The translations under genes and the position numbers were made by a program. From IMG/VR virus record IMGVR_UViG_3300020176_000083, positions 1 through 26,006 of that record: DNA of 26,006 bases. The stretch is one strand, 5' to 3'. This stretch comes from a virus. Below the pieces are notes generated by a model, which did not search any database, had not been told where the DNA came from, and saw only the letters and a program-made list of their open reading frames with translations. Positions 3,677 through 19,116 of this stretch are shown in pieces. How positions within the stretch are numbered: position 1 is the first letter of the stretch; each line of letters opens with the position of its first letter.

Positions 3677-4132
3677 CTAATCCATCAATTCAAAGTGCGG
3701 CCCGTCGATGAATGGACGCTTGCCTTCATGCCTTCTAGTGTCAATGTAACTGGTCATTGCTTTAGCCATAGACTTCCTCCATTCCCGAATGTCCATGACT
3801 GTCCAGGCTCCGCCCCATCTGACAGCGACATCAAGTTCAGTAGCGGCAATTTTCATTGCTTCAGCGATGTTGTCGTAGACGTTAATTTCCCAACAGCCTC
3901 GACCATCAATGTATGCCATCAGGTCAACTGCTAGGCCATCGAGATGCTTTGACTTCATTGTCTTTGATGCACCTTTAGCAACCAAGGCTTTCTGTTCTTC
4001 TTCTGTTCGCAAACCTTGAATGACACCAAAGTCTGTATCAGTCACCTCAATGGCTCGCTCAACGACTGCGACTAGACGCTCGTCAACGCCTTCTAAATTG
4101 TCTTTCGATTTCTTTGATAGCTTGTAGCTCAT
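3677..4132 (-). CDS. endolysin, M15-family peptidase
   Basis: A 151-residue single-domain zinc peptidase of the M15 family, similar in layout to the T5 endolysin (L-alanoyl-D-glutamate or D,D-peptidase), which cleaves peptidoglycan peptide stems. Zinc ligands by pattern are H63 and D70 in SKHLDGLAVDL and H146 in DGPHFEL; D143 is the likely catalytic acid. RTEEEQKAL at 42-50 is the usual substrate-side helix. There is no signal peptide or SAR helix, so export depends on the holin encoded directly upstream (ATGA overlap at 4129). Length fits the family. Confidence 0.93.
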   Translation of the reverse strand: MSYKLSKKSKDNLEGVDERLVAVVERAIEVTDTDFGVIQGLRTEEEQKALVAKGASKTMKSKHLDGLAVDLMAYIDGRGCWEINVYDNIAEAMKIAATELDVAVRWGGAWTVMDIREWRKSMAKAMTSYIDTRRHEGKRPFIDGPHFELMD

Positions 4133-4533
4133 TTCGTTAATCCTTTTGCCTTTTCAAAACTACGCATACCGCCAAGACCTAGCATACCCAGTAGGACTGT
4201 CATCAGCGAGTCCATATCGAACGTAGGGATTTCAGGTATCTCTGCCCCAGACCACGCAACTCCAAATACAATGAATGGAGCAAGTACAAAGTGATATCCC
4301 AACGCGACTCCGCATACCCATCCGATAAAGGGTCGCCATCCTGCGACAAAGATTGATCTGTGTTGGGCTTCTGCTTTGTTGACTTCAACTTGTGCCATAG
4401 CCGCTTCATGGGCTTGCTTTTCAGCCAGTGTTGCAATTTCATGGGCTAACTTTGCCTTTTGGTCTTTGTCCTCGACAACCTTATCGAGAACATTACTTAC
4501 TGCGGGAACTAGACTGCTGAGTAAACCTAACAC
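4129..4533 (-). CDS. holin, GTA-type three-transmembrane family
   Basis: A 134-residue inner-membrane protein of the 3-TM holin family first noted in gene transfer agents. Residues 20-58 are a charged helix with the family signature NKAEAQHRSIFVAGWRP at 52-68, followed by hydrophobic segments at about 62-92 and 108-124, with a further hydrophobic stretch at 1-16. It forms the membrane lesion that releases the endolysin. The start is GTG at 4533 with AAGGAG 7 bases upstream. The first 41 bases overlap the zinc-ribbon microprotein gene, so translation may be coupled. Confidence 0.85.
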   Translation of the reverse strand: MLGLLSSLVPAVSNVLDKVVEDKDQKAKLAHEIATLAEKQAHEAAMAQVEVNKAEAQHRSIFVAGWRPFIGWVCGVALGYHFVLAPFIVFGVAWSGAEIPEIPTFDMDSLMTVLLGMLGLGGMRSFEKAKGLTK

Positions 4534-4666
4534 GATCTATCTCCTTATCGTATGGTTTCCTGCCGCACTTATCACAACTGCCGACAGGTCGAAATAAAAA
4601 AGCACATCCACAGTCAGTGCGGTATTCGTGCTGTTCATACACATAACCACACATCTTGCGTTTCAC
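4493..4666 (-). CDS. zinc-ribbon-like Cys-rich microprotein (57 aa)
   Basis: A short frame that fills the gap between the EF-hand protein and the holin. I chose GTG at 4666, with AAGG about 10 bases upstream; an in-frame ATG at 4654 would give 53 residues. Five cysteines (C6, C19, C21, C31, C34) are arranged as MCG, DCGC and SCDKCGRK, the knuckle pattern of a zinc ribbon. The C-terminal tail (QQSSSRSK) is polar. It overlaps the holin start by 41 bases and contains the holin ribosome site. No family recognised. Coding status rests on the cysteine pattern and gap filling. Confidence 0.6.
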   Translation of the reverse strand: MKRKMCGYVYEQHEYRTDCGCAFLFRPVGSCDKCGRKPYDKEIDRVRFTQQSSSRSK

Positions 4667-4668
4667 GG

Positions 4669-4992
4669 CTAACTGCCTTTGTCTTGCTTCTTGCTGATCG
4701 CATCACTAGCAAAGAAAGCTGAACACAAGACAGCTATCGAGGCAAAGTAGGTAGGTGCGATGTCAGAAATAAGTTGAGCCGCTTTGCCCATGCCAAAAGC
4801 ATCAGCCAAGAATATGCCAAAGGGATACAACAAAAGGCCAAACAACGCAAACCACGCCATCTTACGTTGCGCGTCTCTTTGAGCATCAGCATCTTCCATT
4901 TTACGGCGGCGATCCTCAAGCTCAATAGCCAGTAACTCATCAGGGTCGAGAACGCCATTCCCGTTGGTGTCATACTTTTCTAACTCCGTCAT
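4669..4992 (-). CDS. EF-hand membrane protein upstream of holin
   Basis: A 107-residue protein with a complete canonical EF-hand loop at residues 8-19, DTNGNGVLDPDE (ligands D8, N10, N12, D16, E19), then a charged helix (20-44) and two hydrophobic helices at about 46-66 and 72-95. It should sit in the inner membrane with a calcium-binding N-terminal head. Similar EF-hand plus membrane proteins occur, as far as I recall, in marine phages without assigned function. It is adjacent to the holin cluster, so a role in lysis or membrane change is inferred only. It starts 4 bases after the stop of the upstream gene. Confidence 0.75.
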   Translation of the reverse strand: MTELEKYDTNGNGVLDPDELLAIELEDRRRKMEDADAQRDAQRKMAWFALFGLLLYPFGIFLADAFGMGKAAQLISDIAPTYFASIAVLCSAFFASDAISKKQDKGS

Positions 4993-4995
4993 TGC

Positions 4996-5727
4996 TTAAT
5001 CCTCGTCAAGAATGATATCAAATGCGGCTGTGATTCGTGCATTATTGGAACGAACCGTTGCTCTAACATCGATATCAGATTTTTCAGGTATCTTGATCGG
5101 GCAAGCAAACTGATAGAAATATTCGCCGCCATCACCGCAAACTTCAAATGTATGACCTACACGGAAAGCAGAGTCATCAAAGTAGCGAACAAACATATCG
5201 CCAGTAGCATCAGCACCATCCTGGCAAGTAGCAACACCTTGTATCAAGTATGCTGTATGGCCTGCGGGTACAGTATAGACAGCCATCAATGTCTGGCCTT
5301 TGCCCGCTGTGATTTGAGCAACTGTTGTAGCACCCGCTTTGATCGTGACATTGCCAACATTCGTCGCTGACCCGTTCGTTATGTAAGCGCGATAGACTCT
5401 AATGAACTCTGTTGTTGATGCATTACCTGTTGCCGCTGTCAACGTAATCGTTTCATTAGCTACGTTGTAATTTGCATCTAGTCCTTCAATGTAAACTTCT
5501 TTGTCAGCATCACTAGCGGATGCTCTGTCTACTGTAATTGTTGTAGCTGATGCCCAGGCTGACCAAGGGTATTCAGTATCGTTGACATCCCAGATAGTCC
5601 CTGTGTTGTTTTGTGACATGGCAGGAACAGCACCGAACTTATGTATGCTAGAAACATCTGCAAATTGACCTTTTGCGATACCTAGTGGTGCATTGGCTAA
5701 ACGCATACAATCCATCAGTTGAGACAT
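4996..5727 (-). CDS. beta-rich virion-like hypothetical protein
   Basis: A 243-residue protein rich in Thr, Ala, Val and Gly with alternating hydrophobic residues, probably all-beta. The middle (ITLTAATGNASTTEF, GNVTIKAGATTVAQI) and the region ending FACPIKIPEKSDIDVR resemble a structural protein widespread in marine phage genomes, where it is usually annotated as a virion protein. No signal peptide or membrane helix. It sits between membrane proteins, downstream of the fibre, so it may be a minor particle decoration or fibre-related protein. Function not proven. Confidence 0.65.
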   Translation of the reverse strand: MSQLMDCMRLANAPLGIAKGQFADVSSIHKFGAVPAMSQNNTGTIWDVNDTEYPWSAWASATTITVDRASASDADKEVYIEGLDANYNVANETITLTAATGNASTTEFIRVYRAYITNGSATNVGNVTIKAGATTVAQITAGKGQTLMAVYTVPAGHTAYLIQGVATCQDGADATGDMFVRYFDDSAFRVGHTFEVCGDGGEYFYQFACPIKIPEKSDIDVRATVRSNNARITAAFDIILDED

Positions 5728-5730
5728 TAG

Positions 5731-6180
5731 TTACTTTCCTTTAAGAGATATAAGCCACAGTAATAGGGCCACGGCCCCGCCAACCACACCGAGAACAGCA
5801 ATGCCAACAGCACCATACAAAAATCCATTCTGTATGGCTTTTTTTCTAGCCAGTTTCTTAGCTTCTGCACGTTTCTTTTCGTTTTCCCGCATTTGTTTGC
5901 GATTTGCGATGAACTTTTCGTAATCTGTCCATAGGCCAGGTCTCCCGGAATAGATAAAAAGTTGCTTTATTTCTGCCTCTCTAGATCGTATTTTTTCAAG
6001 TGCAAAGAAGCATTCCATATCACCATCTTTAGCTTTTTTCTCTATTTCTTCTTTAGCATCAGCTAGCTTAGTGAGTTGCGGCCCCATCTCGCCAACAGAT
6101 TGAACGTGACCTGCAAACTCTTTGATTGCGCCGATAGCCTCGTTTGCGATCTTGATAGCGGCTATGGCTTCAAAGATCAT
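5731..6180 (-). CDS. coiled-coil protein with C-terminal membrane helix
   Basis: A 149-residue protein. Residues 1-75 are helical with hydrophobic and charged repeats, 95-116 are strongly basic (KKRAEAKKLARKKA), and 120-145 form one membrane helix followed by a short KGK tail. Proteins of this shape are common in marine phages; a C-terminal anchor with a long helical body could be a virion or lysis-associated protein. There is no lipobox, so it is not an Rz1-type spanin. It is separated by only 2-3 bases from its neighbours. Function unknown. Confidence 0.65.
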   Translation of the reverse strand: MIFEAIAAIKIANEAIGAIKEFAGHVQSVGEMGPQLTKLADAKEEIEKKAKDGDMECFFALEKIRSREAEIKQLFIYSGRPGLWTDYEKFIANRKQMRENEKKRAEAKKLARKKAIQNGFLYGAVGIAVLGVVGGAVALLLWLISLKGK

Positions 6181-6182
6181 GG

Positions 6183-6377
6183 CTACGTCTTAGCGAGAAG
6201 GGAGATTAGGAGCATGATCGTCGCACCTGCTGTGCCGATCATTATGGCTTCGATCCGTTTGATTCTTAGAATTGTCTCAGTCCAACGCTCAGTGCAGACA
6301 GCCTCATGCTTGGCAAAATCTGCGGCCAAGCCGTCAATTCTTTCATGTGCTGATGCTACTGTACGTTTGTCCATCAT
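6183..6377 (-). CDS. small membrane protein (64 aa)
   Basis: A 64-residue protein: a helical N-terminal part (residues 8-42, with CTERWTETILRIKRIE) and one membrane helix at about 44-62 ending in AKT. It resembles small phage proteins annotated as putative holins or anti-holins, but a single helix and the presence of a clear holin downstream make that uncertain. Two consecutive ATG codons open the frame; GAGGACGC before the first is the ribosome site. An extended -10 promoter lies just upstream (6400-6408). Confidence 0.65.
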   Translation of the reverse strand: MMDKRTVASAHERIDGLAADFAKHEAVCTERWTETILRIKRIEAIMIGTAGATIMLLISLLAKT

Positions 6378-18260: not shown

Positions 18261-18706
18261 TTGAATACCTCGCGGCTAAATACATTGCGTAGCACTTTTT
18301 GGTCTTTTCTGTTTAAACCAAAGAAAGGTCTTTTGACTTGGTTGTATGCCGCTTTTTCAGCATTAGAAATTTTGGCTTCACCTTTACCTGCAAAGAATAT
18401 TCTTACCTTCCCGTTTTGCGGTCTAGTGTTGGTCATTGACCTAAGCATATCGTTAGTTAATTGCAGGTTAACACCACGGTAGTTCACGCCTTGTGCTTTG
18501 CGTTTGAATGTTTCGTATTCTGGAGTGTAGCGTGCAAACGAACTTCCATTGATTTCTTTGCCATCATCAGTTCTTTCTTCAATGCGTTTAGTGGCAACCT
18601 GAGCAACAACATCTAAAGCCCGGTTGATATTGCCTCTGAACCGATTCTGAAATAATCCAAGACTCGCTAGAAAACTACGATTGTTGATTCTGACTGTTGC
18701 TGTCAT
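18257..18706 (-). CDS. HK97 gp10-like head-tail / tail completion protein
   Basis: A 149-residue basic protein. It has an N-terminal helical part with INRALDVVAQVATKRIEERT and GREINGS-like DGKEINGSSFARYTPEY, then LTNDMLRSMTNTR and KVRIFFAGKGEAKISNAEKA, ending in KDQKVLRNVFSREVF. This resembles the minor capsid/tail completion family around HK97 gp10, which joins the connector to the tail. It overlaps both neighbours by ATGA. Good support from gene order. Confidence 0.75.
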   Translation of the reverse strand: MTATVRINNRSFLASLGLFQNRFRGNINRALDVVAQVATKRIEERTDDGKEINGSSFARYTPEYETFKRKAQGVNYRGVNLQLTNDMLRSMTNTRPQNGKVRIFFAGKGEAKISNAEKAAYNQVKRPFFGLNRKDQKVLRNVFSREVFK

Positions 18707-19116
18707 CGGATCAAACGTCCAGTGAATGTCAGGTCTTTCTCTGTATCTTGGATGATGCCATCTTCATTGAAATCATATTCAACACCGTCAGCCAAAACAG
18801 ACTCTAACTCTCGACCGTACAAGTCACGATAGAAGTCAATCATCAGTCTGAACCTGTCACCATCAACCCAGTTGGTTAGTTGCGGCAAAGCATACTTCCA
18901 CAAAACCAGATAAGCGTTAGTCCGTGTCCATTGTGTGTCGGTCAAAAGACTGTCATTCATTTCGCCTTTGAAGCCAGTGCGAGGCCACCAACGTCTGCGA
19001 ACCTCACGCTTAATATCTTCTTCTGCTTTGGCGTGTTCGTCAGCAAATGAATCAATGCCTAGATCAAGGATGTCAGGAACGATTGTCTGTAAATCTGAAT
19101 CTTTAGAAAATGCCAT
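18703..19116 (-). CDS. head-tail connector/adaptor protein
   Basis: A 137-residue mainly helical protein: FADEHAKAEEDIKREVRRRW, then LTDTQWTRTNAYLVLWKYALPQLTN and RLMIDFYRDLYGRELESVL, followed by acidic DFNEDGIIQDTEKD. Helical bundle, size and position after capsid genes fit HK97 gp6/SPP1 gp15-type adaptors that bind below the portal. The acidic stretch DFNEDGIIQDTE resembles a calcium-binding loop but lacks the Gly and ligand spacing of a standard EF-hand. The ATG overlaps TAA of the small gene before it. Confidence 0.75.
   Translation of the reverse strand: MAFSKDSDLQTIVPDILDLGIDSFADEHAKAEEDIKREVRRRWWPRTGFKGEMNDSLLTDTQWTRTNAYLVLWKYALPQLTNWVDGDRFRLMIDFYRDLYGRELESVLADGVEYDFNEDGIIQDTEKDLTFTGRLIR

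Follow-up and report, generated by a model that had tools for sequence, protein, structure and literature searches.

The window analysed here is the whole 26,006-nucleotide stretch of one IMG/VR virus record (IMGVR_UViG_3300020176_000083), in which the late genes lie on the minus strand. Between 3.6 and 6.4 kb this strand encodes, in order of transcription, a 64-aa protein, a 149-aa protein, a phrog_8198 protein, a small EF-hand membrane protein (hereafter, the EF protein), a cysteine-rich microprotein (the Cys protein), a holin and an endolysin, followed by a terminator. All of these features are on the minus strand. The 64-aa protein (6183–6377) has a coiled-coil-like N-terminus and a C-terminal transmembrane (TM) helix, a layout like that of XhlA-type lysis accessories. 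The 149-aa membrane protein (5731–6180), also with a C-terminal TM helix, is conserved and is a frequent partner of the EF protein, with homologues near the EF gene in 43 of 71 distinct loci; the family also occurs in the freshwater Limnohabitans phage DC31 and in Roseobacter phage CRP-345. The phrog_8198 protein (243 aa, 4996–5727) is encoded before the EF protein in the window and directly after it in two other loci (L033 and L070), and thus moves within the module.

The genes for the EF protein (107 aa, 4669–4992) and the Cys protein (57 aa, 4493–4666) lie directly upstream of the holin gene, the order given in the preliminary description. The Cys gene has a GTG start codon and begins two bases past the EF stop. 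Its overlap with the holin gene had been put at 41 bases and is exactly that (4493–4533). The holin (134 aa, 4129–4533) is a member of the GTA_holin_3TM family (PF11351, E 1.4e-23, 84.2 bits against a cut-off of 24.8; phrog_3427, annotated as holin, E 1.8e-34); its gene starts with GTG, and AAGGAG lies about 8 bases 5' of this codon. The endolysin is an M15-type peptidase (151 aa, 3677–4132; PF13539, E 2.8e-6; phrog_465, E 4.9e-53) whose start lies inside the holin stop, an overlap of four bases. A strong intrinsic terminator (3646–3626, GCCCGCTAACCCCTAGCGGGT and then a T-rich tail) closes the series. The endolysin and the terminator extend the cassette beyond the part covered in the preliminary description. 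Given that the last genes of the cassette are separated by gaps of only 2–3 bases or overlap (by 41 and 4 bases), they appear to form one lysis operon.

The ORF at 4669–4992 carries the EF-hand loop previously assigned to residues 8–19 of a two-helix membrane protein. The loop (DTNGNGVLDPDE, 4936–4971) contains every standard EF-hand ligand, and hydropathy indicates two hydrophobic helices, at residues 45–63 (4804–4860, hydropathy 1.97) and 78–96 (4705–4761, hydropathy 1.63). Six-frame lists contain many short ORFs and loosely matching motifs, which would suit a chance origin: an EF-like motif and a spurious small ORF that happen to lie beside a holin. This explanation is ruled out by shuffling, ligand conservation, purifying selection and synteny, and its probability is negligible. 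The strict 12-residue EF-hand pattern appeared in 74 of 200,000 shuffles of the EF protein; over the 182 ORFs of the window it was seen twice, against 0.025 expected from shuffled ORFs. Ligand conservation, a check named in the preliminary description, is complete: none of the 138 relatives with complete loops, some of them less than 45% identical, has lost a calcium ligand. The fixed columns of the loop are D1, N/D3, N/D5, G6, D/S/T9 and E12, and positions 2, 4, 7, 10 and 11 vary freely. The median dN/dS of the family is 0.19, indicative of purifying selection. A second EF-like loop (DFNEDGIIQDTE) occurs at residues 115–126 of a 137-aa ORF (18703–19116, minus strand) in the structural gene region.

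When the family profile was compared with all PDB chains, it matched calmodulin (E 2e-4), calbindin and further EF-hand proteins, with the loop as the aligned region. The protein falls below the curated cut-offs of the Pfam EF-hand models (18.7 bits versus 25.4 for EF-hand_1), probably because its entering helix is very short. Judged by sequence, EF proteins are a genuine family under purifying selection in which a complete EF-hand loop is combined with two predicted TM helices. At least 593 relatives were identified in viral contigs, from marine phages. The family as a whole has no match among Pfam, PHROG or NCBIfam families; large as it is, protein family libraries gave only the sub-threshold EF-hand matches.

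An AlphaFold2 model (mean pLDDT 81.5, pTM 0.44), made with an alignment that left out rows from isolate records, begins with a short helix and the loop, continues as one long helix through the first TM segment (residues 17–65) and ends with another short helix and the second TM helix (residues 79–106). The exit helix is long and confidently predicted, and the entering helix spans only residues 3–7 (pLDDT about 66–76). The predicted protein shares the 12-residue loop and standard ligands with the calmodulin/calbindin superfamily, but differs in having a single loop, a very short entering helix and an exit helix that passes without a break into a TM helix. Fold searches against viral models gave a single significant match, to an unnamed protein with 46% identity; those against the PDB gave none, which is unsurprising for a helical hairpin. 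Many lysines and arginines precede the first TM helix and follow the second, with almost none in the loop. This charge distribution suggests that both termini are in the cytoplasm. From the distribution of charge and established EF-hand chemistry, the loop is expected to bind Ca2+; a lone, unpaired EF-hand may bind weakly or serve as a structural site.

The genes around relatives of the EF protein were also surveyed. A lysis gene was found within 2 kb downstream of the EF gene in 61 of 71 loci in a first scan and in 45 of 45 in a second, more divergent scan; recognised endolysins were present in 45/71 and 44/45, respectively. Some of the loci are near-copies of one another, which means that the counts do not represent independent events. 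Equal-size windows at other offsets on the same contigs contain lysis genes in only 0–2% of cases. Thus, the linkage to lysis genes that had been proposed as a check is borne out in relatives. An independent scan that started from the Cys protein covered 64 loci: the EF gene preceded the Cys gene in 61 of them, and a lysis gene followed it in all 64.

The position occupied by the holin in the window is filled by at least five families in loci with an EF gene: GTA_holin_3TM, phrog_2524, phrog_9646, phrog_1544-like and phrog_6637-like proteins. The endolysins beside the EF gene are of M15, GH24, GH108 and GH19 types. The EF protein remains constant while holin and endolysin families are swapped, and the EF tree contains two separate lysis-linked clades; descent of a single cassette is thus insufficient as an explanation. 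The commonest holin-slot family next to the EF gene, phrog_2524, is annotated as of unknown function. It lies between the EF or Cys gene and the endolysin gene in most relatives (e.g., L031, 5437–5814; L090, 4297–4632; L100, 4297–4683). We treat it as holin-like because of where it lies, its size and its weak profile similarity to the GTA holin; phrog_2524 probably represents a family of 3TM-type holins that has gone unrecognised.

In cultured phages the downstream gene varies. Roseobacter phage CRP-810 has the order EF, holin, GH108 endolysin; in Roseobacter phage CRP-345 the EF gene is followed by a spanin-like gene and an M15 endolysin, and in phage DC31 by an Rz-like spanin gene and an M15 endolysin. 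CRP-345 and DC31 have complete genomes in which no holin is annotated and none is detected by the holin-family HMMs used here. The paper on phage Melnitz, whose genome encodes an EF homologue, nowhere mentions a holin under that name, and for the role of pinholin analogue it suggests a curli pore (PMC9004378). These genomes raise the possibility that the EF protein is itself a two-TM holin (N-in, C-in) with the EF-hand on its cytoplasmic N-terminus and, where a 3TM holin is encoded as well, a second holin or an antiholin. Such a role would suit a small protein with two TM helices and charged ends that is encoded next to an endolysin. However, in most relatives a separate holin or holin-like gene comes right after the EF gene, in T4-like phages the EF gene adjoins the tape measure gene, and the DC31 and CRP-345 genomes encode further small two-TM proteins elsewhere. 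The EF protein is not a member of GTA_holin_3TM and matches no holin family in PHROG or Pfam, and comparison with three holin-slot alignments (hhalign) gave probabilities below 1%. Given the lack of detectable homology to the tested holin profiles, we do not class the EF protein as a holin, although it is the obvious candidate in CRP-345, DC31 and Melnitz; overall, we consider that it is unlikely to be one. The family nevertheless supplies a candidate holin for these three cultured phages, which makes an annotation gap testable.

Linkage to lysis genes does not extend to the whole family. In a branch recognised by LEFKRKE after the loop, which includes T4-like phages of Pelagibacter and Methylophilales, the EF-hand is equally intact and a lysis gene lies downstream in only 3 of 18 rows. 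In the T4-like phages HTVC008M and Melnitz (L084 and L085), the EF gene is flanked by the tape measure gene and the gene for a gp51-like catalyst of baseplate hub assembly. Other relatives are near glycosyltransferase, DnaJ or terminase genes. These locations, together with conservation of the EF-hand in both settings, would fit a general late membrane protein with a structural calcium site, involved for example in virion assembly at the membrane, injection or superinfection exclusion and simply parked by the lysis genes in the late operon. Against this, the lysis neighbour is nearly invariant in two separate clades in which one lysis gene family replaces another, and the control offsets give only 0–2%; we regard this alternative as unlikely, to the same degree as a holin role. 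Conversely, close relatives of the window holin are encoded in cassettes that have neither the EF nor the Cys gene, in CRP-823, Venkman and a Manatee Spring podovirus. From the T4-like EF genes that do not adjoin holins and the GTA-type holin cassettes without an EF gene, we infer that the EF protein is neither needed by nor confined to that holin type. The lysis pair described for the Rhodobacter capsulatus gene transfer agent, the type for GTA_holin_3TM, consists of a putative lysozyme and a holin (PMC3423380).

The Cys protein of the window has five cysteines (C6, C19, C21, C31 and C34), as previously noted, of which only four are conserved: C21 is absent from the pattern C-x12-C-x11-C-x2-C, which is invariant in 26 aligned rows, along with conserved Y, G, RP and K positions. 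The median dN/dS of 0.30 and the invariant pattern indicate that this is a real, conserved protein. Four invariant cysteines in a protein of 40–60 aa are most naturally read as a zinc site, although only the second pair forms a CxxC knuckle. There is no match in Pfam (E up to 1), PHROG or NCBIfam, a fold search with the model gave nothing significant, and no homologues were found in cultured phages. The term metal-responsive unit, applied earlier to this gene pair, is a reasonable one for the predicted EF-hand and cysteine sites taken together.

Most simply, the Cys protein would be a small zinc-ribbon-like regulator whose translation is coupled to that of the holin. The junction between the two genes ranges, over 58 distinct pairs, from a 257-base gap to an estimated 149-base overlap, with start sites guessed. 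Overlap is common and the length of 41 bases is not itself conserved; in 41 of the 58 pairs the Cys gene either runs into the holin start or lies next to it. Phage Mu Com, a zinc-binding translational activator of mom, is likewise tiny and cysteine-rich, and its gene extends into the start of the one that follows. By analogy, the Cys protein could be the actual regulator of the cassette, binding RNA or protein and controlling translation of the overlapping holin gene. In keeping with this are the invariant four-cysteine pattern, the presence of a lysis cassette in every one of the 64 loci and the frequent contact with the holin start. However, the cysteine spacing differs from that of Com, no Pfam zinc ribbon (including the Com type) is matched, and seven folds at the holin start gave z-scores of −1.5 to +1.3, nothing beyond chance and no conserved RNA structure. 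The Cys gene is also absent from about half of the EF loci. We thus consider it quite unlikely that the Cys protein is the controlling element.

Our best reading is that the EF gene encodes a predicted calcium-binding protein of the inner membrane, made late in infection as part of the lysis cassette, in which it would be an accessory or an alternative holin. This is based on the conservation of the ligands, the PDB matches aligned on the loop, the linkage to lysis genes and their swapping, the two lysis-linked clades, the gene orders in cultured phages and the terminator that closes the operon. Counting against it are the T4-like branch, the GTA-type cassettes without an EF gene, the annotation of phrog_2524 and the unpaired state of the EF-hand. 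Among specific roles, we rank highest that of a calcium-dependent partner that would sharpen or time holin triggering, with a probability of roughly 0.4. This putative role in lysis timing is plausible, and the interpretation in the preliminary description is supported in part.

Such a partner could work as follows. Cytosolic Ca2+ is kept low and sea water contains about 10 mM, and the EF-hand would be empty in a healthy cell. Entry of Ca2+ via holin lesions, loss of membrane potential or damage would fill the loop, and the filled loop would be expected to stiffen the continuous helix that joins the EF-hand to the first TM segment. The stiffened helix may alter packing with the holin, or the oligomerisation of the EF protein itself, and this change would make holin triggering abrupt or set its time. 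A bolder version is a calcium-gated holin system, in a widespread group of marine phages, in which entry of sea-water Ca2+ is read by the EF-hand and turns early leakage into all-or-none lysis, with the EF protein acting as the holin where known holins are absent. We judge this to be improbable.

Membrane-bound lysis accessories are already known, and the new element here is the conserved EF-hand. Two-TM holins and holin/antiholin pairs, such as lambda S105/S107, phage 21 S68/S71 and XhlA/XhlB, resemble the EF protein as small membrane proteins encoded with a holin and an endolysin. We know of no EF-hand in any of these, and the EF protein further differs from them in that it is unmatched by the tested holin profiles. 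Calcium-binding loops do occur in phage endolysins, for example in staphylococcal CHAP lysins. These share the association of calcium with lysis proteins, but there the site is in the wall-cutting enzyme, whereas the site predicted here is in a membrane protein encoded 5' of the holin. In the open-access literature we found no EF-hand phage protein linked with holins or with marine phage lysis and, consistent with the preliminary description, no lysis system with the order EF, Cys, holin; an earlier description elsewhere is possible. If the EF protein senses calcium, it would carry a conserved calcium switch, and we know of no other lysis protein on the holin side that does. Lysis timing would then be tied to the ion gradient between the cell and sea water, and, in many viruses of marine bacteria, calcium could contribute to the timing of host lysis or to lysis itself.

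Also identified in these surveys was gp73 of Roseobacter phage CRP-207 (L086, 3292–3873), which is annotated as a putative lysozyme. This protein, of the family designated d4, has an N-terminal TM helix and a long coiled coil, and looks more like an inner-membrane spanin than a lysozyme.
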